Program-made: the position numbers and the translations under genes
From: Vibrio sinaloensis
GTDB taxonomy: Bacteria; Pseudomonadota; Gammaproteobacteria; Enterobacterales; Vibrionaceae
Assembly: GCF_023195835.1 (NCBI RefSeq)
Contig: NZ_CP096199.1
Location: 496,001 to 560,000, forward strand
Length of the DNA stretch: 64,000 bases
Direction of reading: 5' to 3'
Shown here: positions 13,210 through 32,194 of the stretch, one piece after another
Layout: each line of letters opens with the position of its first letter
How positions within the stretch are numbered: position 1 is the stretch's first letter
Notes under the pieces: model-generated
Seen by the model: only the letters and a program-made list of their open reading frames with translations
Told to the model about the DNA's origin: nothing
Database searches by the model: none

Positions 13210-13219
13210 CAATTACCTA

Positions 13220-13248
13220 TTGCTTAGGCGATGTACATCCCCTATAAT
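13220..13248 (+). promoter_or_regulatory. rpsO promoter
   Basis: A -35 box TTGCTT (13220-13225), a 17-base spacer and a consensus -10 box TATAAT (13243-13248) predict a start near 13255, leaving a leader of about 67 bases. In E. coli, S15 represses its own translation through this leader. Confidence 0.8.
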
Positions 13249-13321
13249 TCGCGCTCCTCGTGTCGGCTGAATCAGAGATTGGCTGGCACAGTTATTAACC
13301 TACTCTTATTAGGAGAGAATT

Positions 13322-13591
13322 ATGTCTCTGAATGCAGAAACTAAAGCAGCAATCGTTGCAGAATACGCTCAAGGTGAAGGCGATACTGGTTCACCAGAAG
13401 TACAAGTAGCTCTACTGACTGCTTCTATCAACCACCTACAAGGTCACTTTAAAGCACACAAAGGCGATCACCACAGCCGTCGTGGTCTGCTACGTATGGT
13501 TTCTCGCCGTCGTAAGCTTCTAGATTACCTAAAAGGTAAAAATCTAGCTCGCTACCAAGACCTAATCAAGCGTCTAGGCCTACGTCGCTAA
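13322..13591 (+). CDS. rpsO: 30S ribosomal protein S15
   Basis: S15 binds the central domain of 16S rRNA early in 30S assembly. The 89-residue protein has the standard [16 protein letters not shown] start, the conserved [14 protein letters not shown] segment and the [20 protein letters not shown] core. The ribosome binding site AGGAGAG lies just before the ATG. pnp follows about 340 bases later with a terminator and a structured leader in between. In the usual gamma-proteobacterial order rpsO directly follows truB, but here truB lies 18 kb downstream and rpsO is preceded by a tandem repeat. Confidence 0.98.
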
Positions 13592-13616
13592 TCAGCGACT
13601 GCATAGCAGTTTGTCG

Positions 13617-13642
13617 AAAAAGGGGCTTTCAGCCCCTTTTTT
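13617..13642 (+). terminator. Rho-independent terminator after rpsO
   Basis: The stem AAAAAGGGGCT / AGCCCCTTTTT with loop TTC is followed by T residues. Some readthrough into pnp is expected from the E. coli precedent. Confidence 0.9.
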
Positions 13643-13710
13643 GTTGCCTGTTATTTATTTTGGCTGCTATGGCTTAGCCAAATCGAATTAATCCCGCTAT
13701 ACTACGCCCG

Positions 13711-13854
13711 CATGCTTTTGAACCTCGTCGGTTATAAAGCATGAGTGACAAGCTCATCGCATTACAGTCAACCACGTCGACCAAAAGGTCGCGACTATTC
13801 AAAGTGAATTTTGCCTTCTTTTATCTACGCTCAGTTCATTTTTACTAGTCGCGA
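13711..13854 (+). promoter_or_regulatory. pnp leader with two long-stem hairpins
   Basis: The first hairpin pairs CATGCTTT (13711-13718) with AAAGCATG (13736-13743), and AACC with GGTT inside it. The second pairs TCGCGACTA (13789-13797) with TAGTCGCGA (13846-13854) across a 48-base interior. In E. coli, RNase III cuts the pnp leader and PNPase then represses its own synthesis. The position and double-stranded character here fit the same mechanism, which is inferred. It accounts for most of the 337-base rpsO-pnp gap. A possible -10 box TATACT lies at 13699-13704. Confidence 0.65.
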
Positions 13855-13928
13855 TTTGTAATGCCTTGAGTATCAATCAATACACTCTGAGCTCTGTGTT
13901 TACAGAGGCCCAGAAACAAGGAATAACA

Positions 13929-16061
13929 ATGTTCGAAAAACCAGTTGTTAAAACGTTCCAGTACGGTAACCACACAGTTACTCTAGAAACTGGCGTTATT
14001 GCACGTCAAGCGACCGCAGCCGTAATGGTAACTATGGACGATACGTCAGTATTCGTTTCTGTTGTTGGTAAAAAAGAAGCGGTGGAAGGTCAAGACTTCT
14101 TTCCACTAACGGTTAACTACCAAGAGCGTACTTACGCTGCAGGTAAAATCCCTGGTGGTTTCTTCAAGCGTGAAGGTCGTCCATCTGAAGGCGAAACGCT
14201 AACGGCTCGTCTTATCGACCGTCCAATTCGTCCTCTGTTCCCAGACGCGTTCAAAAACGAAGTTCAAGTTATTGCCACCGTTATGTCGGTAAACCCAGAC
14301 GTTCAACCTGACATCGTTACTATGATCGGTACATCAGCAGCGCTTGCTATCTCTGGTATCCCGTTCAACGGTCCTATCGGTGCTGCGCGCGTTGGTCACA
14401 TCGATGGTCAGCTAGTACTGAACCCAAGCAACACTGAGCTAGAAACGTCTAAGCTTGACCTGGTGGTTGCAGGTACCGAGGGCGCTGTTCTGATGGTTGA
14501 GTCAGAAGCTGACAACCTAACAGAAGAAGAGATGCTTTCAGCGGTTGTGTTTGGTCACGATCAACAGCAAGCTGTTATCTCTGCAATCAACGAGTTCGCT
14601 GCTGAAGTCGCGACTCCAGCTTGGGATTGGGTTGCTCCTGAAGAGAACACTGCACTTAAGAACCGTATCGCTGAACTCGCTGAAGCGAAATTGGTTGAAG
14701 CTTACCAAATCACTGAGAAGATGGCTCGTTACGACCGCATCCACGAGATCGCTGGTGAAGTGAACGAAGTGCTGCTTGCTGAAGATCCAGAAGCAAACAC
14801 CAAAGAAATCCACACTATCTTCCACGATCTAGAGAAAACAGTAGTACGTCGCAGTATCATCGCGGGTAACCCACGTATCGACGGCCGTGAAAAAGACATG
14901 GTTCGTGCGCTAGACGTACGCACTGGTGTTCTTCCACGTACTCACGGTTCTTCACTATTCACTCGTGGTGAGACGCAGGCACTGGTAACGGCGACTCTAG
15001 GTACGCAGCGTGACGCTCAAATCATCGACGAGCTAACCGGTGAGCGTAAAGATCACTTCCTACTGCACTACAACTTCCCTCCATACTGTGTAGGTGAAAC
15101 AGGTTTTGTCGGTTCTCCTAAGCGTCGTGAAATCGGCCACGGTAAACTGGCTAAGCGTGGTATCGCGGCAGTAATGCCATCGGTAGATGAGTTCCCATAC
15201 ACAGTTCGTGTCGTATCAGAAATCACAGAATCTAACGGTTCTTCTTCAATGGCTTCTGTATGTGGTACTTCTCTGGCGCTGATGGATGCGGGTGTTCCTA
15301 TTAAAGCGTCTGTTGCGGGTATCGCAATGGGTCTAGTGAAAGAAGGCGACGATTTCGTTGTTCTTTCAGACATCCTTGGTGATGAAGACCACCTAGGTGA
15401 CATGGACTTTAAAGTAGCGGGTACTAGCGAAGGTATCACTGCGCTACAGATGGATATCAAGATCGAAGGTATCACTAAAGAGATCATGCAGATTGCTCTT
15501 AACCAAGCGCAAGGTGCACGTAAGCACATCCTATCGGTAATGGATGAAGCGATTTCTGGTGCTCGTGAAGATATCTCTGAATTCGCTCCGCGCATTCACA
15601 CCATGAAGATCAGCGCAGAGAAGATCAAAGACGTTATCGGTAAAGGTGGTGCAGTTATCCGTGCTCTAACTGAAGAGACGGGTACAACGATCGAAATCGA
15701 AGACGACGGTACTATCAAGATTGCAGCAACTGAAGGTACTGCAGCGAAAGAAGCGATCCGTCGTATCGAAGAAATCACTGCTGAAGTTGAAGTAGGTCGC
15801 ATCTACACAGGTAAAGTTGCGCGTTTGGCTGATTTCGGTGCATTCGTAACTATTCTTCCAGGTAAAGATGGTCTAGTACACATCTCTCAAATCGCTGACA
15901 AGCGTGTAGAGAAAGTGTCTGACTACCTAGCTGAAGGTCAAGAAGTACAAGTTAAAGTACTTGAAATTGACCGTCAGGGCCGTGTTCGTCTGAGCATGAA
16001 AGAAGCAGTAGAGAAAACTGAAGAAGCAGCAGCGGAAGAAAAGCCAGCAGCTGACGCTTAA
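13929..16061 (+). CDS. pnp: Polyribonucleotide nucleotidyltransferase (PNPase)
   Basis: PNPase degrades RNA phosphorolytically from the 3' end and is part of the RNase E degradosome. The 710 residues (E. coli 711) comprise a first RNase PH domain ([24 protein letters not shown] region), a helical linker, a second RNase PH domain ([15 protein letters not shown], and [15 protein letters not shown] near 460), then a KH domain ([18 protein letters not shown], near 560) and a C-terminal S1 domain ([20 protein letters not shown], near 620). The ATG at 13929 is chosen because AAGGA precedes it and [10 protein letters not shown] is the family start; an in-frame upstream extension lies in the structured leader. 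Confidence 0.98.
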
Positions 16062-16117
16062 TCTAAGAGCATCTGGGGCAATCAGGCGATTAGCCTAATT
16101 CGCCCAAAGCATGTTAT

Positions 16118-16144
16118 AAAGGGAGCATTACGCTCCCTTTTTTT
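16118..16144 (+). terminator. Rho-independent terminator after pnp
   Basis: The stem AAAGGGAGC / GCTCCCTTT with loop ATTAC is followed by four more T residues. Confidence 0.9.
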
Positions 16145-16192
16145 ATGTGCGGATGACACTGAGCGAGTGCTCAGTTACAGGAGTATTTATTT

Positions 16193-17110
16193 GTGAAATG
16201 GTTTCAAACCGCAACACTTAGCTTAGCAATGCTGATTACAGCGGGCTGTGCTTCGACATCAAATAACGCGACGCAGTGGATTTACCCTCCGATGGCGGTA
16301 CCACTGCAAGCCAGTGCTCAGCAAGAAGTGCAAATCGCGCGTCTGTCTCATCTACTGCAGCGCCCAGACTTGTCCGATGAAATCAGAGCTAAAATGCTCT
16401 ACGAGCGTGGCAATTATTACGATAGTGTCGGCTTACGAGAGCTGGCTCGATTGGATTACAACCTGTCTCTGTCACTCAACCCAGCTCAACCTGACTTGTT
16501 TAACTTGTTGGGTGTCTTTTTTACTCAAGTGGGCGAATTTGATGCGGCTTATGATGCCTTTGATTCCACATTAGAACTCGATCCGGAAAACTCTTATGCC
16601 GCGCGCAATCGCGCGATAGCGCTCTATTACGGGGATCGGATTGATCTGGCGCTTGAAGACATGCAAAAGCATTACGAGCAGGATCCAAGTGATCCGTTTC
16701 GTGCTCTGTGGCGCTACCTTATTCAAATGGAGCAGCAGCCAGAGTTGGCTCGTGAGCAACTGTTAGCTCAATATCAACAGCGAGATGAACAGTGGGGGTG
16801 GGTGCTGGTAGCAATAAGTTTAGGTGACGTTAGCGAAGAGCAGGCCTTTAAAGCGATTTTAGCCGGCACTAGAGACAACACCTTACTGGCACAGCGTTTA
16901 ACGGAAGCCTATTTTTACTTAGGTAAGCGTTACCAAGCTCAAGGTGATTTTGCCAATGCCATCTCCCTATACAAGCTCGCGATCTCATTTAACGTGTATG
17001 AGTACGTAGAGCACCGTTACGCCTTCCTTGAACTGAATCGAATCTACAATCAGGTCAAAGCTGAGCAGCTAGCCAAAGCAAAAATGGCACAGGAGCAGAG
17101 CAGCCAGTAG
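16193..17110 (+). CDS. nlpI: Lipoprotein NlpI
   Basis: NlpI is an outer-membrane lipoprotein built of tetratricopeptide repeats. In E. coli it scaffolds peptidoglycan hydrolases and the Prc protease that degrades MepS. The 305-residue protein has a lipoprotein signal peptide with lipobox LITAGC, making C19 the lipidated residue. TPR-like segments follow: AKMLYERGNYYDSVGLRELA, PDLFNLLGVFFTQVGEFDAA, and SYAARNRAIALYYGDRIDLA. The start is GTG 16193 with CAGGAG nine bases upstream; the nearby ATG is out of frame. It follows pnp as in E. coli, but with its own transcription unit between two terminators. Confidence 0.94.
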   Translation: MKWFQTATLSLAMLITAGCASTSNNATQWIYPPMAVPLQASAQQEVQIARLSHLLQRPDLSDEIRAKMLYERGNYYDSVGLRELARLDYNLSLSLNPAQPDLFNLLGVFFTQVGEFDAAYDAFDSTLELDPENSYAARNRAIALYYGDRIDLALEDMQKHYEQDPSDPFRALWRYLIQMEQQPELAREQLLAQYQQRDEQWGWVLVAISLGDVSEEQAFKAILAGTRDNTLLAQRLTEAYFYLGKRYQAQGDFANAISLYKLAISFNVYEYVEHRYAFLELNRIYNQVKAEQLAKAKMAQEQSSQ

Positions 17111-17124
17111 TCGCCTTTAAACAT

Positions 17125-17152
17125 AAAAAACCGCCTTTGATGGCGGTTTTTT
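17125..17152 (+). terminator. Rho-independent terminator after nlpI
   Basis: AAAAAACCGCC / GGCGGTTTTTT with loop TTTGAT. Confidence 0.9.
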
Positions 17153-17153
17153 A

Positions 17154-17201
17154 TTGCCAGTACCCGATGATTAGCGCTAAAATAGTTAGCATGGCTAACT
17201 A
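17154..17201 (+). promoter_or_regulatory. Promoter and operator 1 of the marR-type gene
   Basis: A -35 box TTGCCA (17154-17159) and a -10 box TAAAAT (17178-17183, spacing 18) precede a perfect palindrome TAGTTAGC-ATG-GCTAACTA at 17183-17201. The palindrome covers the expected transcription start, so a bound regulator would block initiation. An identical pair of arms recurs before the pump gene. Confidence 0.8.
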
Positions 17202-17213
17202 AATGGACTTGTG

Positions 17214-17627
17214 ATGAGTTTAGAAAAGAGTTTGATCGAGCTTGAGCGATTTTGTGCTAAAGCGTGGCGGATTCACGCAAAAGAGGATCCTTTGGCGCGT
17301 TTGAGTTTCAACGAGTATGACTATTTGCGCGTAATTGAAGCTTACCCACAAGGCGTGCGTATTACTGATCTGGCTGAGGAAATGAAGGTGACCAAACCTT
17401 CAGCATCAGCGATGGTCGTACGGCTGCAAAACAAAGGGCTTGTTAAGCGGGTCCACTGTTATCAAGATGCCAGAGCGAAACGGGTTGCACTGACAGACAA
17501 AGTGATTGAAGAAATCTCGATGGAACAGAAGGTCTACCAGCAGATCGCGTCTACGATGACCGCAAAACTCTCTGATGATGAAGCCATACAATTGGTACAA
17601 CTTTTAACGAAGTCACTGAAATCTTAA
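17214..17627 (+). CDS. MarR-family transcriptional regulator
   Basis: A 137-residue winged-helix protein of the MarR family. The recognition region reads GVRITDLAEEMKVTKPSASAMVVRLQNKGLVKR, followed by a wing with DARAKRVALTDK, and long helices at both ends for dimerisation. MarR proteins bind short palindromes as dimers and are usually released by small ligands. It is preceded by operator 1, and operator 2 lies between its stop and the MATE pump gene, so it probably represses itself and the pump. The ATG at 17214 is preferred; a GTG one codon upstream is possible. The inducing ligand cannot be told from the sequence. Confidence 0.92.
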   Translation: MSLEKSLIELERFCAKAWRIHAKEDPLARLSFNEYDYLRVIEAYPQGVRITDLAEEMKVTKPSASAMVVRLQNKGLVKRVHCYQDARAKRVALTDKVIEEISMEQKVYQQIASTMTAKLSDDEAIQLVQLLTKSLKS

Positions 17628-17637
17628 TTTATTATTT

Positions 17638-17656
17638 TAGTTAGCCTTGCTAACTA
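17638..17656 (+). promoter_or_regulatory. Operator 2, before the MATE pump gene
   Basis: TAGTTAGC-CTT-GCTAACTA has the same two 8-base arms and 3-base spacing as the site at 17183, and is preceded by a -10-like TATTAT (17630-17635). It lies 11 bases before the pump start codon. Confidence 0.82.
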
Positions 17657-17667
17657 TTGGTGTGAAA

Positions 17668-19005
17668 ATGCAAAAGTCAATTTATTCACAGTTTTGGCGC
17701 TATGCGATTCCGACCATTGCCGCGATGTTGGTCAACGGCTTGTATCAGGTCGTCGATGGCATTTTTATTGGCCACTATATTGGTGCTGATGGTTTGGCGG
17801 GAATCAATGTGGCTTGGCCGGTGATTGGTACTATTTTGGGTATTGGTATGCTGGTTGGTGTCGGTACCGGTGCGCTTGTCTCTATTCGCCAAGGTGAAGG
17901 GGACCATGTGGGGGCAAAGCAGGTCTTAACCACAGGGCTTTTTCTGCTGTTGGCTCTGATGCCAATTGTTGCTGGTGGCCTGTACTTGTTTGCCGATGAC
18001 TTTTTACGCTGGCAAGGTGCAGAAGGGCGTGTGTATGAGCTGGGTCTGCAATATCTGCATATCTTAATTGGATCCAGTGTCTTTATTTTAGGCTCAATTA
18101 CAATGCCCTTTTTGCTACGCAATGATGATAGCCCAAATTTAGCCACGCTATTGATGATAGCGGGTGCTGTGGTGAATATAGTTATGGACTATGTCATGAT
18201 AGCGTTGTGGGGCTGGGAGCTTACTGGTGCGGCCATCGCCACTACGATCGCGCAAGCGGTCGTGACAGCTTTAGGGTTGGCTTATTTCTTTTCGTCTAAA
18301 GCGAATCTACGCCTAAAATTTACCGATTTCAAATTCAAGCTTAAGACGGTTCCGCAGATCTTTGCGATAGGTACCTCAAGCTTCTTTATGTATGCCTATG
18401 GTTCGATGATGATCGCACTGCACAACGGTCTATTTGCTCAATATGGCGATGTGTTGGTGATAGGTGCGTATGCGATCTTAGGTTATATCGTAACGGTCTA
18501 CTACCTGACGGTTGAAGGGGTAGCAAATGGTATGCAGCCATTGGTTAGCTACAATCATGGTGCTCGCAATCAAGAGAATATACGCAAGCTTATAAAAGTA
18601 GCGATGACCACCTCGATTGGGATTGGCTTAGGTTTTGTGGTCTTGCTCAACCTTTTTCCAACTGCATTCGTCTCAGTATTCAATTCAACAGACCAGCAAC
18701 TGATTGAAAATACGGTACTAGGTATTCGCCTGCACATGTTTGCGTTGTTTTTAGATGGCTTTTTATTGGTTGCCTCTGCTTATTATCAAGCGATCAACAA
18801 AGGTAGCAAAGCGATGTTTGTGACGGTGGGTAATATGCTAATTCAATTGCCCTTCCTGTACATTATGCCCAAGTTATTTGGCCTAACGGGAATCTGGCTT
18901 GCTTATCCTTTGTCAAATATCGCTCTGAGTGCGGTGGTCATGGTGTTGCTGTGGAAAGACGTGCAGCGCTGCCAAATGACATCTGCGCAGCAGGTGACAG
19001 CATAA
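17668..19005 (+). CDS. MATE-family multidrug efflux transporter
   Basis: A 445-residue inner-membrane protein with twelve hydrophobic segments in two halves, of the MATE superfamily, which exports cationic drugs and dyes in exchange for Na+ or H+. Family marks include the first-helix segment VNGLYQVVDGIFIGHYIG and, in the second half, GVANGMQPLVSYNHGA, which resembles the MepA/VmrA branch rather than NorM. ATG 17668 is chosen because upstream in-frame starts overlap the operator. The MarR-type gene immediately upstream and the twin operators show how it is controlled. Substrates cannot be predicted; the cotranscribed regulator suggests induction by a toxic compound. Confidence 0.93.
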   Translation: MQKSIYSQFWRYAIPTIAAMLVNGLYQVVDGIFIGHYIGADGLAGINVAWPVIGTILGIGMLVGVGTGALVSIRQGEGDHVGAKQVLTTGLFLLLALMPIVAGGLYLFADDFLRWQGAEGRVYELGLQYLHILIGSSVFILGSITMPFLLRNDDSPNLATLLMIAGAVVNIVMDYVMIALWGWELTGAAIATTIAQAVVTALGLAYFFSSKANLRLKFTDFKFKLKTVPQIFAIGTSSFFMYAYGSMMIALHNGLFAQYGDVLVIGAYAILGYIVTVYYLTVEGVANGMQPLVSYNHGARNQENIRKLIKVAMTTSIGIGLGFVVLLNLFPTAFVSVFNSTDQQLIENTVLGIRLHMFALFLDGFLLVASAYYQAINKGSKAMFVTVGNMLIQLPFLYIMPKLFGLTGIWLAYPLSNIALSAVVMVLLWKDVQRCQMTSAQQVTA

Positions 19006-19033
19006 AAGAAAAGGGCTCTGTTGAGCCCTTTTT
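19003..19033. terminator. Bidirectional terminator between the MATE gene and ubiV
   Basis: The stem AAAGGGCTC / GAGCCCTTT with loop TGTT has T runs on both strands and serves two convergent genes. Confidence 0.88.
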
Positions 19034-19043
19034 ACGTTTGCAG

Positions 19044-19934
19044 CTAGAGGTTTTTCACCTCAAGGCCTGCGAGTTGATGCCAGTAGCCGTTGCATTGACG
19101 ACTTTCGATCTCAACAGGGCTTTGGCCGTTTTCGTTTGCTCTGAACCTATCGACTTGCGAGAAGGCATCAACCCCTAGTGGACTTAAACGCACTACATCA
19201 ACCAGACCTTTCATGCTTGGCAAATCGTTAATCAGATTATAACAGTAGCCCGATTGGGTTTGGATGCCGTTTAGGTTGAACACCTCCTGCCCCTCTTGGC
19301 TGCTGACTTGGATCCCTGTTGGGTACTTAATACAGCAGGTTTCGCAGTCGTCTTTGGCTCGGTTCTCTGCTCGGGCGGTAAAGCAGCGCGCGGAATACGC
19401 CAAAGGAAGGTAGCCATGGCTAAACACTTCCACTTCAAACTGTCCTTTTATGCCTATTTCATCGCACTGAGTCAGCACGTTAGACAGCCATTCACGCGAC
19501 AGCTCGACCGGCATACACCAGCGTGTCATGCCCTGTTTTAGGAATAGCTTTAGCGTATGAGCGTTATAAGCATTGATCGCAGGGCCTACCACAAAAGGAA
19601 CCTTGGCTTCACTAGCGAGTTGAATCGCAGATACGTCATTCGCTTCGATAGCAAAATCACCATTGTCGATGTACTTCTTCATCACATTGACTTCACTGGG
19701 CGCTTCGAGAAGTGCCATGGTAGAGAGCACCACCTGTTTACCTGCAGCGCTTAACTCTTTAGCGATCTCGAACCAGTGGTTGGGTTTCATTTCACGTCGT
19801 TTTGAGCAGACGCTTTCACCCAAGTAGATGATGTCAGCCGAACTGTTTTTCGCCTGCTGATAGAAATCTTCCACATCTTGTTTTGGCCAGAAATAGAGTA
19901 GTGGGCCAAGTGCGTATTTCATATTGTTTTCCAT
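19044..19934 (-). CDS. ubiV: Oxygen-independent ubiquinone hydroxylation protein UbiV
   Basis: UbiV (formerly YhbV), a U32-family iron-sulfur protein, works with UbiU to hydroxylate ubiquinone precursors without O2. The 296 residues begin MENNMKYALGPLLYFWPK, with GGAG six bases before this ATG; a further upstream in-frame start gives an implausible tail. The four cluster cysteines are recognisable: one in GESVCSKRR and three in SARCFTARAEN...DDCETCCIKYP. It lies 22 bases downstream of ubiU on the same strand, forming an operon. UbiT, the partner accessory factor, is encoded 3 kb away on the other strand. Confidence 0.94.
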   Translation of the reverse strand: MENNMKYALGPLLYFWPKQDVEDFYQQAKNSSADIIYLGESVCSKRREMKPNHWFEIAKELSAAGKQVVLSTMALLEAPSEVNVMKKYIDNGDFAIEANDVSAIQLASEAKVPFVVGPAINAYNAHTLKLFLKQGMTRWCMPVELSREWLSNVLTQCDEIGIKGQFEVEVFSHGYLPLAYSARCFTARAENRAKDDCETCCIKYPTGIQVSSQEGQEVFNLNGIQTQSGYCYNLINDLPSMKGLVDVVRLSPLGVDAFSQVDRFRANENGQSPVEIESRQCNGYWHQLAGLEVKNL

Positions 19935-19956
19935 GCTGTTCTCCACAACGAAAGCT

Positions 19957-20970
19957 CTATTGCCATTTGCGGTGATAAGCACCGAGAGTGGTTTGACTTC
20001 CTTCGGATACATTGGCCAGAGTTGCATCCCACTTGGACTCTACTTGATAGTTTTCCGGGCTCGCTTGGTAGCGGTCAATGGCTTCACGCCAAGTGCGGGT
20101 AACTTGTTCAACATAGGCGGGACTGCGTTGACGGCCTTCAATTTTGACTGATGCGACGTTGGCGGCGAACAGCTCAGGGAGCATTGACAATGTGTTCAAG
20201 CTTGTCGGCTCTTCTAGCGCGTGGTAAGCCGTGGTTTGCTGTTCAAGGTCGGCAGTGAATCGGCCTTTACATAGGGTAGGATAGCCGGCGTTCTCACCCT
20301 CGCTGTAACGGTCAATTAGAATGTTGTTGAGGCGAGATTCAAGCCCCTGCTCGGTCTCTTGCCAGCGAACAAATTTGGCTGGAGAGCAAGCACCAACAGT
20401 ATTTGGTGACTCGCCAGTCATATAAGAAGAGAGATAGCAGCGCCCTTCAGACATAATGCATAGGCTGCCAAAAGCGAACACCTCGAGCTCCACATCGCTT
20501 GTCATGTTGCGTGAGAGCTGTTTGACCTGATGTATCGACAGCACCCGAGGGAGTACCACACGTTTGACGTTGAAGTGACGATGATAGAAATCAATCGCCG
20601 CGACGTTGGTCGCAGAGGCTTGTACAGATAAATGCAGTTCAAGATGAGGGTATTTGTTGGCCGCGTATTCCAATACTGCGATATCGGCGACGATCAGCGC
20701 GTCCACCCCACTGTTTGCGGCGCGATCAACCGCCTCGGTCCAACGCTCAAATCCACTAGGGTGAGCAAAGGTATTGAGTGCAACATGGATCTTCTTGTGG
20801 TGATCATGAACATATTGCACCGCTTTCTCAAGCTTCTTGCCGGTAAAGTTTAAACCAGCAAAGTGACGCGCATTGGTGTCATCTTTAAAGCCGATATATA
20901 CCGCATCCGCGCCACAATCGATGGCAGTTTTCAATGCTGGCAAGTTGCCGGCTGGGCATAGGAGTTCCAT
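19957..20970 (-). CDS. ubiU: Oxygen-independent ubiquinone hydroxylation protein UbiU
   Basis: UbiU (formerly YhbU) is the U32-family partner of UbiV and forms a heterodimer with it; each carries a 4Fe-4S cluster. The 337 residues start MELLCPAGNLPALK, the family start, so ATG 20970 is used rather than an in-frame upstream GTG. Cluster cysteines appear in FGSLCIMSEGRCYLSS, TVGACSPAKF and YPTLCKGRF. The U32 signature region with EAFAFGSLC-like sequence and the segment VKIEGRQRSPAYV are conserved. It is the first gene of ubiU-ubiV. In E. coli these genes answer to FNR; only a half-site (TTGAT, 21036-21040) is visible upstream here. Confidence 0.94.
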   Translation of the reverse strand: MELLCPAGNLPALKTAIDCGADAVYIGFKDDTNARHFAGLNFTGKKLEKAVQYVHDHHKKIHVALNTFAHPSGFERWTEAVDRAANSGVDALIVADIAVLEYAANKYPHLELHLSVQASATNVAAIDFYHRHFNVKRVVLPRVLSIHQVKQLSRNMTSDVELEVFAFGSLCIMSEGRCYLSSYMTGESPNTVGACSPAKFVRWQETEQGLESRLNNILIDRYSEGENAGYPTLCKGRFTADLEQQTTAYHALEEPTSLNTLSMLPELFAANVASVKIEGRQRSPAYVEQVTRTWREAIDRYQASPENYQVESKWDATLANVSEGSQTTLGAYHRKWQ

Positions 20971-21051
20971 TGCAGTTACCAATACAGTCTTTCATAAAGT
21001 GCAGAGCATTTTATGAAGAAATGTGAACGGCAAATTTGATGTAAGGCAGGT

Positions 21052-21072
21052 TTGAGTGAGTTTATCACTCAA
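21052..21072. terminator. Inverted repeat between rocS-like gene and ubiU
   Basis: The 8-bp perfect stem TTGAGTGA / TCACTCAA has a 5-base loop and lies 15 bases past the stop of the leftward rocS-like gene. It lacks a T run, so termination is possible but weak; it could equally be a protein site in the ubiU promoter region. Confidence 0.45.
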
Positions 21073-21086
21073 TTACTTAAATAGGG

Positions 21087-23850: not shown

Positions 23851-24337
23851 AGCTCCGGCCGATATTTTGGCGATTGACCGTTTACTAAAACTTGCCTTTG
23901 ATACCTCGGCTGAAGCCGATTTGGTGATGCGATTGAGAGAGAATGGTCGCCGAACGTTATCTTTAGTTGCTTGCAATGATGACGGTGAAGTTATCGGCCA
24001 TATCCTGTTCACTCCGGTGACATTGGCTGGCCAAGACTTTAACTGGCAAGGGTTGGCTCCACTCGCGGTTCACCCTGATTACCGCCAGCAAGGAATTGGG
24101 GCTCAACTAGTAAAAGAAGGGCTCACCTCATTACTTGAGTTCGATTACCCCGCTTGTGTTGTTTTGGGTGACCCCAACTACTATTCACGTTTTGGCTTTG
24201 TTGCCAGCGAAGAGTATCAATTAAGCTGTCAATGGGAAGTTCCACCGGGCGTGTTTCAAGTGTTGCCTTTAGTAGAGGGCGAGTTCTCCGAGCGTTCAGG
24301 TTGTATTGAGTACAGCCAAGAGTTCAATCAACTTTGA
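23834..24337 (+). CDS. yhbS: GNAT-family N-acetyltransferase (YhbS-like)
   Basis: A 167-residue protein of the GNAT fold. The acetyl-CoA-binding motif A reads LAVHPDYRQQGIGAQLVKEGL near residue 75, and a later VVLGDPNYYSRFGF segment is characteristic of the YhbS subgroup. The substrate is unknown. The ATG at 23834 has AAAGAGGTG before it and overlaps the end of ubiT. The pairing with an SCP2 protein is conserved in E. coli, but no function in quinone synthesis has been established that I know of. Confidence 0.88.
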   Translation: MLIRTEAPADILAIDRLLKLAFDTSAEADLVMRLRENGRRTLSLVACNDDGEVIGHILFTPVTLAGQDFNWQGLAPLAVHPDYRQQGIGAQLVKEGLTSLLEFDYPACVVLGDPNYYSRFGFVASEEYQLSCQWEVPPGVFQVLPLVEGEFSERSGCIEYSQEFNQL

Positions 24338-24344
24338 CTCTAAT

Positions 24345-24386
24345 AAAGGATAAACAGCAATAACCTTCTGTTTTTGTCCTTTTTTT
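24345..24386 (+). terminator. Rho-independent terminator after yhbS
   Basis: AAAGGA and AAACAG pair with TCCTTT and CTGTTT around a 10-base loop with a 3-base bulge, followed by a run of seven T residues. Confidence 0.75.
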
Positions 24387-24428
24387 GACCGTTCGATGCT
24401 TAAGTCGAACTTTTTTGCAAAAATCCCC

Positions 24429-24457
24429 TTGTCAGTACATTCGTGTTTGGTTAGTAT
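24429..24457 (+). promoter_or_regulatory. secG promoter
   Basis: TTGTCA (24429-24434), a 17-base spacer and TAGTAT (24452-24457). The start would fall near 24464, leaving a leader of about 95 bases. No glmM gene lies upstream, so secG needs this promoter. Confidence 0.65.
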
Positions 24458-24560
24458 TGCTCGGCCTTCGGAGAGGAGGTCGCTAGCCTTGTTCTGAAAG
24501 CTTACTAAACTGAGTTCTCGAGCGGCGCTGGCTCAACAATTTGGAACATAGGTGGAAATC

Positions 24561-24893
24561 ATGTTTACAGTTCTACTTGTGATTTACCTGTTGGCAGCGG
24601 TTGGTGTAATCGGCCTAGTGCTGATTCAACAAGGTAAAGGCGCAGATATGGGAGCCTCATTCGGTGCTGGCGCATCAAACACAGTGTTTGGCGCAAGCGG
24701 CTCAGGTAACTTCCTAACCCGAATGACTGCAATTTTTGCAACAGTATTTTTCATCATTAGCTTAGTGCTAGGCAACATGTCTACACACAAAACTGAATCT
24801 CAGTGGATTGACCCGACTCAAGGTCAAGTTATCCAGAAAGTTGATGATGCGAGTGAAATTCCAGCCCCTCAAGGCGACGAAATTCCTCAATAA
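24561..24893 (+). CDS. secG: Preprotein translocase subunit SecG
   Basis: SecG is the small third subunit of the SecYEG channel. The 110-residue protein has a first membrane helix ([20 protein letters not shown]), the hallmark loop [32 protein letters not shown] (given here only by its ends: QQGKGADMG and [10 protein letters not shown]), a second helix ([12 protein letters not shown]) and a polar tail. ATG 24561 with AGGTGGA before it is used; an in-frame GTG three codons upstream is less likely. tRNA-Leu(GAG) follows 28 bases later, as in E. coli. The gene before it is yhbS rather than the expected glmM. Confidence 0.96.
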
Positions 24894-24921
24894 GCTAGAT
24901 TCTAGCTAAATAGATTTAGCT

Positions 24922-25005
24922 GCCGAGATGGTGAAATTGGTAGACACGCTAGCATGAGGTGCTAGTGCCTTTGGTGTGAGGGTTCGAGTCCCTCTCTCGG
25001 CACCA
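24922..25005 (+). tRNA. tRNA-Leu (anticodon GAG)
   Basis: The acceptor stem GCCGAGA / TCTCGGC, a D-loop with GGTAGACAC, an anticodon stem CTAGC / GCTAG around ATGAGGT (anticodon GAG), a long class II variable arm, the T-loop TTCGAGT and an encoded CCA are all present. The position after secG matches E. coli leuU. Confidence 0.95.
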
Positions 25006-25017
25006 TTATTTACAAAC

Positions 25018-25045
25018 TTGTAAAACACCTTGGAGAGCGTATAAT
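25018..25045 (+). promoter_or_regulatory. Promoter of the initiator-tRNA operon
   Basis: TTGTAA (25018-25023), a 16-base spacer and consensus TATAAT (25040-25045), followed by a GC-rich stretch typical of stable-RNA promoters. The start would be near 25052. Confidence 0.75.
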
Positions 25046-25060
25046 GCTCGACAAGTCGGA

Positions 25061-25137
<77 letters not shown>

Positions 25138-25140
25138 ATC

Positions 25141-25258
25141 CCCTGAGGATTAGTACAAGTTTGCGCAGTAACGCTACTGCGAGTTAAGTGGCAACACTAT
25201 CACTTAACACATCAGGGTCCAGCAACAAAAAACCCCGACTTATTCGGGGTTTTTTGTT
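25141..25258 (+). promoter_or_regulatory. Structured leader and first terminator between tRNA-fMet and rimP
   Basis: A closing stem CCCTGA (25141-25146) / TCAGGG (25212-25217) encloses two perfect 7-bp hairpins: CGCAGTA-ACGC-TACTGCG (25164-25181) and TTAAGTG / CACTTAA (25184-25207). Immediately after comes a terminator, AACAAAAAACCCCG / CGGGGTTTTTTGTT (to 25258). The arrangement looks like an attenuator or a processed leader. A rimP leader with a premature terminator is known in enterobacteria; whether this one is homologous is inferred. Confidence 0.7.
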
Positions 25259-25260
25259 AT

Positions 25261-25327
25261 CTAAATTTCTTCAACAGAGATTTAGAGCTTTGCTTGGAAT
25301 TTAAATTGGGCTCTGAGCCCTTTTTTT
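25261..25327 (+). terminator. Second terminator before rimP with competing hairpin
   Basis: A hairpin CTAAATTTCT-TCAAC-AGAGATTTAG (25261-25285) is followed by GGGCTC-T-GAGCCC (25308-25320) and seven T residues. AGAGC at 25284-25288, whose first two bases lie in the first hairpin, can instead pair with GCTCT in the terminator stem, giving mutually exclusive folds. The T run ends 18 bases before the rimP start codon. Confidence 0.65.
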
Positions 25328-25345
25328 GTTTCTGGAGTGGTTTAA

Positions 25346-25801
25346 ATGACTGGTTTAGAAAGACAACTTACTGAAATGCTTGAAGCTCCTGTAGCGGCAT
25401 CAGGTTATGAGTTAGTTGGATTAGAATTTATTCGCGCAGGCGAGCATTCAACGTTACGTATTTTTATCGATCATGAAAACGGTATTAACGTCGAAGATTG
25501 TGCTGAAGTTAGCCGCCAAGTGAGCGCGGTTATGGACGTTGAAGATCCAATCACGGTGGCTTACAACCTTGAAATCTCTTCTCCAGGTCTAGAACGACCA
25601 CTTTTCAAAGCTGCACATTACGAACAATTTATTGGTCACGAGGTAAGTCTCGTTTTGAAAATGGCCGTGGGCAACCGTCGCAAGTGGAAAGGTGTTATCC
25701 ACTCTGTCGATGGTGAAACCATCTCCGTTACCGTTGATGGTAACCAAGAAGAGTTTGCCCTAAGCAATATTTCAAAAGCTAACCTGATCCCTAAATTTTA
25801 A
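25346..25801 (+). CDS. rimP: Ribosome maturation factor RimP
   Basis: RimP helps assemble the 30S subunit. The 151-residue protein has the family N-terminal domain ([25 protein letters not shown]..., abbreviated) with [23 protein letters not shown] near residue 45 and [10 protein letters not shown] near residue 80, then an SH3-like C-terminal domain ending [11 protein letters not shown]. The ATG has TGGAG eight bases upstream. It is the first protein gene of rimP-nusA-infB-rbfA-truB, behind two terminators that may be regulated. Confidence 0.97.
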
Positions 25802-25825
25802 TTAAAGTCTTAGAGGCTATTTAAA

Positions 25826-27313
25826 ATGAGTAAAGAAATTTTAGCGGTAGTAGAAGCGGTATCGAACGAGAAAGCGGTACCTCGTGAGCGAATCTTTGAA
25901 GCCCTTGAAATTGCTCTTGCAACTTCTACTAAAAAGAAACACGAAATGGAAATTGATGTTCGTGTTCAGATTGACCGTAAAACGGGTGAGTTCGAAACCT
26001 TCCGTCGTTGGTTGATTGTTGAAGAAGTAGAGCATCCAACAAAAGAAATTTCATTAGAGGCTGCTAAGTTTGAAAACGAAGAGTTCGAGCTTGGCGACTA
26101 CGTTGAAGATGATATTGAGTCAGTGACGTTTGACCGTATTACGACTCAAACCGCTAAGCAAGTGATTGTACAAAAAGTACGTGAAGCTGAGCGCGCACAG
26201 ATCGTTGAACAGTTTATCGATAACGAAGGTGAACTGGTTACTGGTGTGGTTAAGAAAGTTAACCGTGAAACCGTGGTACTTGACCTAGGTAACAACGCTG
26301 AAGCGGTTATCCTTCGTGATGACCAACTTCCACGTGAAAACTTCCGTCCAGGTGACCGTGTACGTGGTCTTCTGTACAAAGTGGCTCCAGAAGCACGTGG
26401 CTTCCAGCTATTCATCACTCGCTCTAAGCCTGAAATGCTAGCTGAACTGTTCCGTGTTGAAGTTCCTGAAATCGCGGAAGAGATCATTGAACTTAAAGGC
26501 GCGGCGCGCGATCCAGGTTCACGTGCGAAAATTGCAGTGAAAACCAACGACAAACGTATCGACCCTGTGGGTGCGTGTGTGGGTATGCGTGGTGCACGCG
26601 TACAAGCGGTTTCTGGTGAGCTTGGTGGCGAGCGTATTGATATCGTGCTTTGGGACGATAACCCAGCGCAATTCGTTATCAATGCAATGGCGCCAGCAGA
26701 CGTGGCTTCTATCATTGTTGATGAAGACGCGAACTCGATGGACATCGCAGTAGAAGCTGACAACCTTGCCCAAGCGATTGGTCGCAACGGTCAAAACGTA
26801 CGTCTTGCCTCTCAACTAACAGGTTGGGAACTCAATGTGATGACAGTTGAAGACCTACAGAAGAAACACGCTGAAGAGTCTCAAGCTGCGATTGAAAACT
26901 TCATGAAGCACTTAGATATTGAAGAAGACTTTGCTCAACTACTGGTTGAAGAAGGCTTCTCAACGCTAGAAGAAGTGGCTTACGTTCCTGTAAACGAGCT
27001 TCTTGAAGTTGATGGTCTGGATGAAGACCTAGTAGAAGAACTACGTAGTCGTGCGAAGAACGCACTGACCACTCTTGCGCTAGCACAAGAAGAATCTTTC
27101 GAAGGTTTAGAGCCTGCTGAAGACCTATTGGGCCTAGAAGGCTTAGAGCGCGAGATGGCATTTAAACTGGCAGCTAAAGGTGTTGCAACACTAGAAGATC
27201 TGGCTGACCAGGGTATTGATGATTTAGAAGGTATTGAAGGTCTAACCGAAGAACGCGCGGGTGAGCTAATTATGGCTGCTCGTAACATCTGTTGGTTCGG
27301 TGAAGACGCATAA
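25826..27313 (+). CDS. nusA: Transcription elongation / termination factor NusA
   Basis: NusA binds RNA polymerase and RNA, enhances pausing and termination, and takes part in antitermination of rRNA operons. The protein has 495 residues, the same as E. coli. The N-terminal polymerase-binding domain (1-135) precedes an S1 domain ([23 protein letters not shown] near 140), two KH domains ([22 protein letters not shown] near 250, and [20 protein letters not shown] near 315), and two C-terminal acidic repeats (each ending in a helix-hairpin-helix, [17 protein letters not shown] and [17 protein letters not shown]). It starts 24 bases after rimP. Confidence 0.98.
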
Positions 27314-27334
27314 TTCAGCAAGGGAGGAAGCGGC

Positions 27335-30028
27335 ATGACACAAATTACTGTTAAGGCACTGAGTGAAGAAATTGGCACGCCAGTGGACCGCTTAATTGAA
27401 CAACTTGCTGACGCTGGCATGAAAAAAGCGAGTGGTGACCAAGTTTCTGACGAAGAGAAGCAGAAGCTATTGACGCACCTTAAAAAAGAGCACGGCGACA
27501 CCTCAGGTGATGCTGAGCCAACTCGTTTGACTTTGCAGCGTAAAACTCGCAGCACACTGAGCGTTAACGCTGGTGGCGGCAAGAGTAAGGATGTTCAAGT
27601 AGAAGTGCGCAAAAAGCGCACTTATGTGAAGCGCAGCATTATCGAAGACGACGCAAAACGTGAGGCTGAGGAAGCAGCAAAGCGTGAAGCCGAAGAGCTT
27701 GCGAAGCGTGAAGCTGAAGAGCAAGCGAAACGCGAAGCTGCAGAGAAAGCACAACGCGAGGCCGAAGAGAAAGCGAAGCGAGAAGCGGATGCAAAACGTG
27801 AAGCTGAAGAGAAGGCCAAACGCGTACAAGCTGATAAGGCTAAGAAAGAGATGAATGCACAAAACGCAGATGTGAATACTCAAGCGAAGAAAGAAGCGGA
27901 TGAGTTGAAACGTCGCCAGGAAGAAGAAGCACAACGCAAAGCTGAACAAGAAGCTGCTAAGCTTGTTGAAGAAGCGCGTAAGCTTGCTGAAGAGAACGAA
28001 GCTCGTTGGTCTGAAGAAGAGAAGAAGAAGAAAGAGTTAGAGAACTCTGACTACCACGTCACTACTTCGACTTATGCGCGTGAAGCTGAAGATGCTGAAG
28101 ATCGTAAAGAAGAAGGCGCCCGTCGTCGTAAGAAGAAAAAACCTTCGAGCAACAACGAAGAGCAAAATAGCCGTGGTGGACGTAACCAACGTGGTGGCAA
28201 AGGTGGTCGTAAAGGTCGTTTAGCTAAGCCTGCGTCAATGCAGCAAGGTTTCGATAAAACCGCAACTGTGGCTAAAGCAGACGTAGTGATCGGTGAAACT
28301 ATCGTCGTCTCTGAACTGGCAAGTAAGATGTCAGTGAAAGCGACCGAAGTTATCAAAGTGATGATGAAGATGGGCGCGATGGCGACCATCAACCAAGTGA
28401 TCGACCAAGAAACCGCTCAGCTTGTTGCTGAAGAGATGGGCCACAAAGTTATCATCCGTAAAGAGAACGAGCTGGAAGAAGCGGTAATGCAAGACCGTGA
28501 TAGCAACGCCGAAGCCGCACCTCGCGCTCCGGTTGTGACTATCATGGGTCACGTTGACCACGGTAAAACATCGACTCTTGACTACATTCGTCGTACACAC
28601 GTAGCGTCGGGAGAAGCGGGTGGTATTACCCAGCACATCGGTGCTTACCACGTAGAAACTGACAACGGTATGATCACTTTCCTTGATACTCCAGGACACG
28701 CGGCGTTTACCGCAATGCGTGCTCGTGGTGCTCAAGCAACGGATATCGTTGTTCTTGTTGTTGCAGCAGACGATGGCGTAATGCCACAAACGATCGAGGC
28801 TATCCAACACGCTAAAGCGGCGGGTGTTCCTCTGATTGTAGCTGTGAACAAGATCGATAAAGAAGACGCAAACCCAGACAACGTGAAGAACGAGCTGGCT
28901 CAGTACGACGTTATTCCTGAAGAGTGGGGCGGTGAGAACATGTTCGTTCACATCTCTGCGAAACAGGGTACAAACATCGATGGTCTTCTAGAAGCAATCC
29001 TTCTTCAGTCTGAAGTTCTTGAACTAACAGCGGTTAAAGAAGGCATGGCATCTGGCGTTGTTGTTGAGTCTCGTCTCGATAAAGGTCGTGGTCCTGTGGC
29101 TACCGTACTGGTTCAGTCAGGTACTCTGCGCAAAGGTGATATCGTACTTTGTGGTCAAGAGTACGGCCGTGTTCGTGCAATGCGTGATGAGCTTGGTAAA
29201 GAAATCACGGAAGCGGGTCCTTCTATCCCTGTAGAAATCCTAGGTCTATCTGGCGTACCTTCTTCAGGTGACGAAGCAACAGTCGTACGTGATGAGCGTA
29301 AAGCGCGTGAAGTGGCAAACTACCGTGCTGGTAAGTTCCGTGAAGTGAAACTTGCACGTCAGCAGAAATCGAAGCTAGAGAACATGTTCTCTAACATGAC
29401 GGCGGGTGAAGTCGCTGAGCTTAACGTGGTTCTTAAAGCGGACGTTCAAGGTTCTGTTGAAGCTATCTCTGACTCACTATTGAAACTGTCTACTGACGAA
29501 GTGAAAGTAAACATCGTTGGTTCAGGTGTGGGTGGTATTACCGAAACTGACGTAGTACTAGCAGAAGCTTCTAACGCTATCATCCTTGGCTTTAACGTTC
29601 GTGCTGATGCCTCTGCGCGTCGTGCGGTTGAAGCAGCAAGTGTTGACCTACGTTACTACTCAATCATTTACCAATTGATTGACGAAGTTAAACAAGCAAT
29701 GGGCGGTATGCTTGCTCCAGAATTCAAGCAAGAGATCATTGGTCTTGCTGAAGTTCGTGACGTATTTAAGTCACCGAAACTGGGCGCCATCGCAGGTTGT
29801 ATGGTTACTGAAGGTCTTATTAAGCGCAGCAACCCTATCCGTGTTCTACGTGATAACGTTGTTATTTACGAAGGTGAGCTAGAATCACTACGTCGCTTTA
29901 AAGATGACGTTCAGGAAGTTAAGAGTGGCTACGAATGTGGTATCGGCGTTAAGAACTACAACGATGTTCGCGTTGGTGACCAGATCGAAGTATTCGAAAT
30001 CGTTGAAATTAAACGTACTCTTGACTAA
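27335..30028 (+). CDS. infB: Translation initiation factor IF-2
   Basis: IF-2 is the GTPase that brings initiator tRNA to the 30S subunit and promotes subunit joining. The 897-residue protein has a short N-terminal domain, a highly charged helical region (about residues 105-225) with many KREAEE-type repeats, a basic patch rich in Gly-Gly-Arg (about 270-305), then the G domain with G1 GHVDHGKTS near 405, DTPGHAAF and NKIDK, followed by domains II-IV including the tRNA-binding end. The AGGGAGGAAGCGGC before the ATG is a strong ribosome binding site. In E. coli, shorter forms start internally; in-frame candidates were not resolved here. Co-location with the initiator tRNA gene is functionally consistent. 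Confidence 0.98.
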
Positions 30029-30089
30029 TTGACGAAAATTACTAGCGACATCTTGTCAAGATACGCTGTAATTGGTTGTTGAATACGCC

Positions 30090-30119
30090 ATGGGGGGCTG
30101 GTTACGACCATCCCCCCAT
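30090..30119 (+). promoter_or_regulatory. GC-rich intercistronic hairpin between infB and rbfA
   Basis: ATGGGGGG and TGGT pair with ACCA and CCCCCCAT around a TACG tetraloop, with one mismatched pair (C/T). A pyrimidine-rich tail TTCTTTCT follows. It could act as a leaky terminator or an RNA-stability element lowering rbfA-truB expression relative to infB. Confidence 0.7.
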
Positions 30120-30141
30120 TCTTTCTAATAAGAGAAAAGAT

Positions 30142-30552
30142 ATGTCAAAAGAATTTAGCCGCACGCAGCGAGTGTCACAACAGCTGCAAAAAGAACTCGC
30201 TCTGATCCTTCAGCGCGAAGTTCGCGATTCTCGTCTGGGCATGGTGACCATTTCTGATGTAGAAGTGTCGCGTGACCTGGCATACGCCAAAGTATTTGTT
30301 ACCTTCCTTTGTGTTGGTGAGCAAACCCCTGAATCTTGCCTGGAAGCACTACGTGAGCATGAAGTTCATATCCGTATGATGCTCGGCAAGCGCATTCGTC
30401 TGCGTCTAACTCCAGAAGTTCGTTTCTACTACGACAACACTCTAGTGGAAGGTATGCGCATGTCTAACCTTGTGTCTGAAGTGGTAAACGAAGACAAGCG
30501 TAAGCAGCAAGATGCTGGCCGTGATGAAGACCAGGTGGGAGAAGACAGCTAA
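30142..30552 (+). CDS. rbfA: 30S ribosome-binding factor RbfA
   Basis: RbfA binds the free 30S subunit, helps process the 5' end of 16S rRNA and is a cold-shock factor in E. coli. The 136 residues have the KH-like fold: [28 protein letters not shown] at the start and [19 protein letters not shown] in the middle. The ATG at 30142 with AAGAGAAAAG upstream is used; an earlier in-frame start lies in the hairpin. Its TAA overlaps the truB start by one base. Confidence 0.96.
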
Positions 30553-31499
30553 TGGCTCGTCGTCGTAAAGGTCGTCCAATTAATGGTGTGGTTCTGCTGG
30601 ATAAGCCAACAGGTATCTCATCGAATGATGCGCTACAAAAAGTAAAACGTATCTACTTTGCCGAAAAAGCAGGTCATACAGGTGCACTGGATCCTCTCGC
30701 GACGGGTATGCTGCCGATCTGTCTTGGTGAAGCGACTAAGTTTTCTCAGTTTTTGCTCGATTCAGATAAGCGTTACCGAGTGATTGCTAAACTGGGTGAG
30801 CGCACTGATACCTCTGACTCAGATGGTGAGGTGGTTGAGACGCGTCCAGTGGACGTAAGCTTAGAGAAACTGGAAGCGTGTATTGATAAGTTCCGCGGAG
30901 AGTCTGACCAGGTTCCCTCGATGTTCTCAGCGTTGAAGTATCAAGGCAAACCGCTGTACGAGTATGCGCGCAAAGGCATCGAGGTCCCGCGTGAGTCACG
31001 CAAGATCACTGTATATGAAATCGTTCTTCACCGCTTTGAAGGGGATGAAGTTGAGATGGAAGTACACTGCTCCAAAGGGACTTATATTCGTACTATCGTC
31101 GATGATCTTGGTGAAATGCTTGGCTGTGGCGCTCACGTCACTATGTTGCGCCGTACAGGTGTCGCCAACTACCCATACGAGAAGATGGTGACCTTAGAGC
31201 AACTGAATGAGCTGCTTGAGCAAGCTCACCGTGATGAGGTCGCCCCTAAAGAGTTACTCGACCCTCTGCTGTTACCTATGGATACTGCGGTCGAAGACCT
31301 CCCAGAAGTCAACCTTAATGCTGAGCTGACTCACTTGGTGCAGCATGGTATGCCAGTGCAGGTATTTGACGCACCTGAAGGTACACCGCTGCGCATGACA
31401 TCAGGTGAAGAGAAGCTTTTCATTGGTGTTGCTGAAGTCAACGACGATGGCAAGGTGGCCCCTAAGCGGCTGGTGGTATTCCGTGACGAAGCCGAATAG
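30552..31499 (+). CDS. truB: tRNA pseudouridine-55 synthase
   Basis: TruB makes pseudouridine 55 in the T-loop of elongator tRNAs and also acts as a tRNA chaperone. The 315-residue protein has the catalytic aspartate D47 in [11 protein letters not shown], the KPxG motif [10 protein letters not shown], and [15 protein letters not shown] near residue 175, with a C-terminal PUA-like domain. It overlaps rbfA by one base and ends the operon. In E. coli and V. cholerae rpsO follows directly; here a MITE-like element and a convergent lipoprotein gene follow instead. Confidence 0.97.
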
Positions 31500-31502
31500 T
31501 TA

Positions 31503-31665
31503 ATACCTATTACACCAATTATCTGTTCATTCTTGCTTGTTAAAACCGATTATAACTGCGTTAAAGATTTTGTAGGTAGAACCACTAGCTCGCTGCAATC
31601 TTTGCCTTGTTCTAAGCGGTTTTTCCTACGCAATTCTCTGAACATCTAATTAGTGCGCTTGGTAT
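31503..31665. mobile_element. MITE-like element with imperfect terminal inverted repeats
   Basis: The 163-base element has no coding capacity. Its ends are ATACCTATTACACCAATTA (31503-31521) and the reverse complement of TAATTAGTGCGCTTGGTAT (31647-31665); they match at 14 of 19 positions. Inside, GTAGGTAGAACC pairs with GGTTTTTCCTAC, and AAAGATT pairs with AATCTTT, giving a long hairpin. It starts 3 bases after the truB stop and separates truB from its terminator. I believe similar sequences are dispersed in Vibrio genomes, but this is not verified. A target duplication is not clear. Confidence 0.6.
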
Positions 31666-31668
31666 AGT

Positions 31669-31698: not shown

Positions 31699-31719
31699 AT
31701 TTTTGCTCTGTGAGTACAG

Positions 31720-32148: not shown

Positions 32149-32194
32149 GTGATGACTCCTTGAAAACAATGACTCAATTATATGGTTTAAAAAG

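Follow-up and report, generated by a model that had tools for sequence, protein, structure and literature searches.

We examined the gene order in a 64,000-nucleotide stretch of the Vibrio sinaloensis genome (hereafter the window; positions 496001-560000 of contig C1 of genome G000, which comprises 2 contigs and 4.17 Mb; other G and L numbers denote comparison genomes and loci). In this window, the genes from rpsO to yhbS precede those from secG to truB, and the two groups together lie between mtnN and a DUF1499 gene. A preliminary description had reported this order, and both the arrangement and the strands were confirmed. Protein families were matched for rpsO, truB, secG, mtnN, pnp, arcA and thrC, and Pfam-level matches were obtained for DUF1499 and for the GNAT protein at the yhbS position; the remaining gene names are presumptive and were assigned by reading the translations. 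Between rpsO and yhbS lie pnp, nlpI, marR, MATE, yhbV', yhbU', GGDEF/EAL' and yhbT, and between secG and truB lie tRNA-Leu(GAG), tRNA-Met, rimP, nusA, infB and rbfA (in order strings, a prime marks a gene on the reverse strand and a slash a joint between two genes). The 18-kb block that had been marked earlier is the middle part of a larger disturbed region, window 1737-50835, which is bounded by hldE and tolC, two genes directly adjacent in a canonical genome, and contains six new joints: hldE/arcA'..thrC/yicG'..mtnN'/rpsO..yhbS/secG..truB/DUF1499'..lipo/tolC'. Its parts are as follows, with the proposed inversions numbered as in the model below:

1737..1841: joint hldE/arcA', putative product of inversion 3; spacer of 69-198 bp in 9 genomes
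1842..9392: segment A, arcA'-rraB-thrABC; canonical place downstream of DUF1499..arcB-lipo
9393..9662: joint thrC/yicG', putative product of inversion 2; contains a 12-copy TTCTCGC array
9663..12850: segment M, minus strand, yicG (glycine transporter family), btuF-like, cbiB, mtnN
12155-12850: mtnN, minus strand, family match
12851..13321: joint mtnN'/rpsO, putative product of inversion 1; contains a 15-copy TCTCGAA array
13322..24337: segment R, rpsO-pnp-nlpI-marR-MATE-yhbVU'-rocS-like'-yhbT-yhbS
13322-13591: rpsO, family match
23834-24337: yhbS, GNAT family match
24338..24551: joint yhbS/secG, putative product of inversion 4; spacers of 203-285 bp
24552..31499: segment ST, plus strand, secG-tRNA-Leu-tRNA-Met-rimP-nusA-infB-rbfA-truB
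24552-24893: secG, family match
30552-31499: truB, family match
31500..31719: joint truB/DUF1499', putative product of inversion 1; contains an element resembling a miniature inverted-repeat transposable element (MITE)
31720..50762: segment G, DUF1499'-gltD'-gltB'-gltD'-gltB'-yhcC-open reading frame of 582 amino acids (aa)-arcB-small open reading frame; the last, called lipo, has no Pfam match
31720-32169: DUF1499 gene, minus strand, family match, followed by gltD and gltB
50763..50835: joint lipo/tolC', putative product of inversion 3; spacer of 75-108 bp in 5 genomes

The comparison with other genomes allowed us to recognise the ancestral order. It covered the best 80 of 564 truB loci (the named loci, some of them outside Vibrio) and, in addition, 24 genomes of the same genus. 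The joint truB/rpsO was found in 54 of the 80 named loci and 18 of the 24 genomes and is thus the majority state. The earlier proposal that the window order is derived from an ancestral secG..truB-rpsO..yhbS is right. The other neighbours of truB in the named loci were DUF1499 (24), tolC' (1) and arcA' (1). Upstream of secG, the same 80 loci carried glmM in 54 cases and yhbS in 15, while 6 loci start within the block and 5 showed no glmM or yhbS upstream of secG. The canonical genome G024 reads glmM-secG..truB-rpsO..yhbS-holD-rimI-prfC on one arm and glnE-hldE-tolC'..secA-dapB-carAB-lysR'-yicG'..mtnN'-DUF1499'..glt..arcB-lipo-arcA'..thrABC-grcA'-nfo-ung on the other. Hence mtnN and DUF1499, which the preliminary description had given as neighbours in V. 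cholerae, are directly adjacent in this one canonical genome, and the mtnN-to-thr spacing in the other canonical genomes read fits the same adjacency. A misassembly of the window, for which the repeats at three of its six joints in G000 might speak, is very unlikely given that yhbS/secG recurs in three more genomes (G002, G012 and G020) and in 15 of the 80 named loci, and truB/DUF1499 in 24 of these loci. The joints are real.

Longer stretches of the derived genomes revealed a series of arrangements in living Vibrio species. In the first state, S1, truB/DUF1499 lies on one arm and mtnN/rpsO on the other, and the remaining joints of the series are intact. This state was read in Vibrio sp. SCSIO 43135, in V. 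amylolyticus and, as far as its contigs reach, in V. sp. 10N.261.55.A7; lysR was not detected in the stretches from the latter two. The closed chromosome of SCSIO 43135 carries secG..truB/DUF1499..thrABC at 2.57-2.61 Mb and carAB-lysR-yicG..mtnN/rpsO..prfC at 0.55-0.58 Mb. State S2 is marked by deoB/yicG in G007 and G008, both of which also have a 2.6-kb mtnN-rpsO spacer at the exchange joint. State S3 is marked by thrC/yicG in V. proteolyticus, V. mexicanus and V. xiamenensis; hldE/tolC is intact in V. proteolyticus and, overall, in four S1 or S3 genomes. In S4, represented by V. sinensis, hldE/arcA and lipo/tolC are present while glmM/secG is still intact: one contig reads glmM-secG..truB-DUF1499..lipo/tolC and another hldE/arcA..thrC/yicG..mtnN/rpsO..yhbS-holD. 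The state of the window, P, combines yhbS/secG with glmM/holD and keeps rpsO..yhbS whole (G000, G002 and G012). State P5b adds to P an exchange of mate/yhbV with the joint between lysS and its next gene (G020, V. tetraodonis and V. ostreicida). A further 13 named loci with yhbS/secG belong to P or P5b, the two being undivided there as these loci stop short of the mate/yhbV joint; among them, V. nereis and V. hepatarius also have hldE..thrC-mtnN-rpsO together. Three other states depart from the series. V. renipiscarius (S6, a side branch) carries lysS/tolC and lipo/mutH, and V. intestinalis (S8, a side branch) carries truB/arcA, hldE/gltB1-DUF1499, lysS/tolC and lipo/mutH. V. fluminensis (S7) carries truB/tolC, hldE/arcA and lipo/mutH, with the last joint at contig ends. 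The window shares its joint hldE/arcA with V. sinensis, V. renipiscarius and V. fluminensis.

Since the hldE..tolC region holds six new joints, two ancestral neighbourhoods must be closed elsewhere in the genome. Both closures were located in G000: glmM/holD at about 2465.6-2465.9 kb of C1, and carA-carB-TauE-lysR'/grcA'-nfo-ung..deoCAB at 592-611 kb, which was retrieved after it had been predicted. Moreover, glmM/holD is present in G002, G012 and G020, and lysR/grcA, read only in S4 and P, occurs in V. sinensis with a 2.0-kb spacer. Four reciprocal pairs were observed (glmM/holD with yhbS/secG, lysR/grcA with thrC/yicG, hldE/arcA with lipo/tolC, and truB/DUF1499 with mtnN/rpsO). In three P5b genomes, mate/444-aa gene-mutH is paired with lysS/yhbV or lysS/rocS. 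The reciprocal joint of S2 was not located.

Very probably, serial inter-replichore inversions produced the window order, the permutation being what four or more such events on chromosome 1 add up to. Each would have one breakpoint per arm, the two similarly far from the origin (about 0.5-0.7 Mb), and the breakpoints would shift a little between successive steps. Inversion 1 would exchange truB/rpsO with mtnN/DUF1499 to give truB/DUF1499 and mtnN/rpsO, and inversion 2 would turn thrC/grcA and lysR/yicG into thrC/yicG and lysR/grcA. Similarly, lipo/arcA and hldE/tolC would give hldE/arcA and lipo/tolC in inversion 3, and glmM/secG and yhbS/holD would give yhbS/secG and glmM/holD in inversion 4. 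Two offset arm exchanges move a segment inside out to the other arm, and the outcome therefore looks like a circular permutation.

The preliminary description had favoured a single excision of the block as a circle that was opened at truB/rpsO and reinserted between mtnN and DUF1499. Transposition via circular intermediates, which has been reported in cattle and yeast, does give a circularly permuted order at the new site. The half-step arrangements of Vibrio are unexpected from such a route, and they tell against a single circle. Furthermore, insertion of the block between mtnN and DUF1499 is not supported, as the S1 genomes already have these two genes apart through the exchange with truB/rpsO while secG still adjoins glmM. 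A variant has two rounds of excision and reinsertion: yicG..thrC, opened at mtnN/DUF1499, would enter truB/rpsO, and the composite would then enter hldE/tolC. This was our first model, and it was dropped once the S1 and S4 half-steps appeared. Arithmetically it is equal to the inversions, as excision and integration also take two double-cut-and-join steps. It also fits every second state, namely canonical, S3 and P. A circle would not leave S1 and S4 behind, with their halves on different arms or contigs in living species, and it would keep direction relative to the origin only half the time in each round, whereas direction was kept in both. We regard the two-circle route as very unlikely. A tandem duplication with reciprocal loss, also proposed earlier, would yield the yhbS/secG joint and the rotated order but would leave the flanks in place, whereas glmM and holD, which flanked the block ancestrally, now adjoin each other on the opposite arm, and hldE and tolC enclose the block; this explanation has almost nothing left to recommend it.

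The serial inversions were also followed in a block model, in which the chromosome was coded by hand as blocks from the gene orders read; we infer its distal blocks and the time order of the inversions. Eight transitions (canonical to S1, S1 to S2, S1 to S3, S3 to S4, S4 to P, P to P5b, S4 to S6 and S6 to S8) each correspond in this model to one terminus-spanning inversion, which is equivalent to an origin-spanning one, and S6 to S7 is also one inversion if the unread V. fluminensis joint is as assumed. The canonical order is 4 steps from P in the model, and 2000 random orders were all 9 or more away. No block in the coded orders changes its direction with respect to the origin, which is a requirement of inter-replichore inversions.

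For the positions of the joints we took gidA to mark the origin; in 12 of 14 genomes a contig end is no more than about 10 kb away from it, the others being G008, where this is not so, and G012, which was left unscored. The S1 joints of SCSIO 43135 are 588 and 570 kb from gidA, one per arm, and in G000 glmM/holD and yhbS/secG are 497 and 529 kb from it on opposite arms. The symmetry thus rests on two events, whose positions later changes may have shifted, and placement on opposite arms is direct for inversion 1 (SCSIO 43135) and inversion 4 (G000) and comes through the model for inversions 2 and 3. In addition, rpoB lies on opposite arms in G000 (C1:253246-257238) and SCSIO 43135 (G045:C1:2893736-2897728), a sign that the arms exchanged at least once more, closer to the origin.

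The preliminary description had pointed to repeats at both breakpoints of the block. They are present in G000, together with a second heptamer array that it had not listed:

9580-9664: TTCTCGC array, 12 copies, at the thrC/yicG joint
13105-13209: TCTCGAA array, 15 copies, at the mtnN/rpsO joint
about 31517-31665: MITE-like element of a family of about 150 bp, at the truB/DUF1499 joint

The MITE-like family has 19 near-full-length copies in G000 including that of the window, spread over both contigs, and two of them sit at joints of the series (truB/DUF1499 and glmM/holD). Of the eight joints in G000, two thus carry an array and two a MITE-like copy, as would be expected if these had served as recombination sites. 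In the comparison genomes, the corresponding joints yielded none of them: in a scan of the spacers (exact arrays of at least 4 units; blastn E up to 1e-4; duplicate genomes removed by hand), heptamer arrays were found at mtnN/rpsO in 1 of 17 genomes and at thrC/yicG in 1 of 12, and the MITE-like element at truB/DUF1499 in 1 of 30 and at glmM/holD in 1 of 4, each time in G000. Moreover, spacers elsewhere are mostly shorter than in G000, and the few long ones (333, 339, 462, 611, 2471 and about 2630 bp) are without these repeats. A repeat-driven rearrangement is accordingly most improbable, and the part of the earlier claim that gave the repeats a role is not supported. As they are private to G000 among the genomes compared, the arrays and the MITE-like element look like later arrivals at open sites. 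Perfect heptamer arrays of unlike units (TTCTCGC, TCTCGAA, GAATACA and CCCGTAA) occur in spacers of different Vibrio, among them the thrC-grcA spacer of G008 and the truB-rpsO spacer of L127, with a period that is constantly 7.

We infer that the arms were joined illegitimately, with no more than short shared strings at the crossover, and that repeats did not serve as the partners. The relevant strings for an inversion are those shared reading outward on both arms, and in 28 of 30 tests of partner spacers the longest such string was not above shuffled controls. The exceptions are 13 bases shared between glmM/secG and yhbS/holD, TGCCCCTTTTTTG in V. intestinalis and TCGCCCCTTTTTT in V. renipiscarius. 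Across genomes, at least 13 bases were shared in 11 of 2109 pairs at the inversion 4 sites and in none of 61 pairs of a control comparison of glmM/secG with truB/rpsO. As for direct repeats that a circle might have used, the lysR/yicG and thrC/grcA spacers have 7-8 bases in common in G024 and G045, which is not above shuffles. From about position 24375 on, the yhbS/secG spacer of the window resembles glmM/secG spacers of other states. In the 12 yhbS/secG spacers compared, this similarity usually begins at a related string (TTTTGTCCTTTTTTTG in the window) and runs to secG, so that inversion 4 would have crossed at or upstream of the string. That the crossover lay at this very string is no more than suggestive: it resembles a terminator end, V. 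sinensis (S4) shares only 8 bases, and the conserved region upstream of secG may simply begin there. No recombinase was recognised by eye in the lists of open reading frames, and no profile search aimed at recombinases was made.

Several points weigh against a simple succession of inversions. The block model assumes distal blocks, the S2 reciprocal joint and lysR/grcA in the S3 genomes, and the V. fluminensis state is only partly read. The canonical genomes themselves differ, with prfC beside srmB in 3 of 17 (V. aestuarianus, V. fujianensis and Y2-5), apart in 13 and unresolved in 1; this difference is one more exchange, which may have gone in either direction. Furthermore, five overlapping marker sets all rejected a single clade for the genomes without truB/rpsO in the approximately unbiased test (p = 0.000125 for rpoB, 1.5e-65 for nusA-infB-truB-rimP, 1.7e-47 for pnp, 0.0068 for glmM-folP-ftsH and 0.00097 for 16 proteins), and the sets contradict each other on P plus P5b. 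The series is therefore an order of states and not a proven single lineage. The nusA-infB-truB-rimP tree had 103 rows and 4386 columns after G010 and L114 (short or missing genes) and 12 G genomes that duplicate named loci had been dropped; the other sets were glmM-folP-ftsH (70 rows; 24 rows), rpoB (30), pnp (27) and 16 proteins (30), and rows labelled P may be P or P5b except for G000, G002 and G012. With rpoB, P plus P5b (8 genomes) and S4-and-later (12) each formed a clade at 100/99, and the 16-protein set rejected neither (p = 0.31). The nusA-infB-truB-rimP DNA and the pnp DNA rejected both, and glmM-folP-ftsH rejected P plus P5b (3 genomes there) and left the larger group unsupported (38/12). 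In the tree of the moved-block DNA, V. nereis and V. hepatarius stand next to the canonical harveyi group, which disagrees with rpoB; in the block-gene tree the nearest relative of G000 is Vibrio sp. JPW-9-11-11. The conflict among these housekeeping gene trees (24-30 genomes) suggests recombination or codon-usage bias in the markers, and as the trees conflict with each other we claim no dated history.

Two readings of the rejected clade offer themselves: a bias common to the markers, or repeated occurrence or reversal of the same exchanges. What speaks most for reuse of a joint is the place of the S3 species V. xiamenensis and V. proteolyticus among canonical species: they group with V. aestuarianus, V. 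metoecus and Y2-5 at 100/99 in the 16-protein tree, and with canonical species, without V. aestuarianus, at 99/97 in rpoB. V. mexicanus (S3) stands apart from this pair, its nearest relative in the trees being SCSIO 43135 (S1). S2 also used lysR/yicG. We give even chances to the idea that truB/rpsO with mtnN/DUF1499 and thrC/grcA with lysR/yicG were exchanged repeatedly in Vibrio, in parallel or back, without long repeats. If so, these joints would be preferred points of arm-to-arm exchange, perhaps at places that sister forks or aligned arms bring together, and with most joints confined to spacers of about 50-300 bp they would be open to direct study.

Earlier work has already documented inversions symmetric about the origin, the reuse of breakpoints and inversions arising in parallel (PMC2483231, PMC5850607, PMC6307245). 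In Yersinia, symmetric inter-replichore inversions with ends about equally far from the origin have been described and breakpoint reuse discussed (Darling et al. 2008, PMC2483231); that account concerns one group with inferred ancestors, whereas successive arrangements survive here in living species, and a net product resembling a circular permutation is a feature of the Vibrio locus. A prokaryote-wide bias toward origin-symmetric inversions, with explanations from sister forks and arm proximity, has been reported at survey level (Mol Biol Evol 2017, PMC5850607), and in the portion drawn on here without the step-by-step series for one locus that Vibrio provides. In Burkholderia, the same inversion occurred on separate branches of the tree and inter-replichore inversions were overrepresented; the breakpoints given in the section cited are repeats (transposases, rRNA loci) or a gene pair, whereas no long repeat was found at the Vibrio joints (PMC6307245). 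Within the terms and library searched, no paper treating this Vibrio locus was found by title or start of abstract. What is added here is a locus with most single steps surviving in living species and a net result that imitates circular permutation. These intermediates show that a rotated order, easily taken for a mobile circle or a duplication, can come from ordinary arm-to-arm inversions, in which operons stay intact and are still read in the same sense with respect to replication. With the series one can also ask, in a natural setting, whether breakpoints symmetric about the origin are hot by mutation or merely by the loss of other products.

Two further observations concern the neighbouring genes. 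A gene of 683 aa lies between rimI and prfC in G000 (L170:7735-9786) and also in G001, G002, G003, G012, G020, G045, G046, G047 and G048, and was not detected there in the remaining genomes compared. Moreover, the conserved pair rpsO and pnp is split by about 9 kb of other DNA in G020:C23 and G042:C24.

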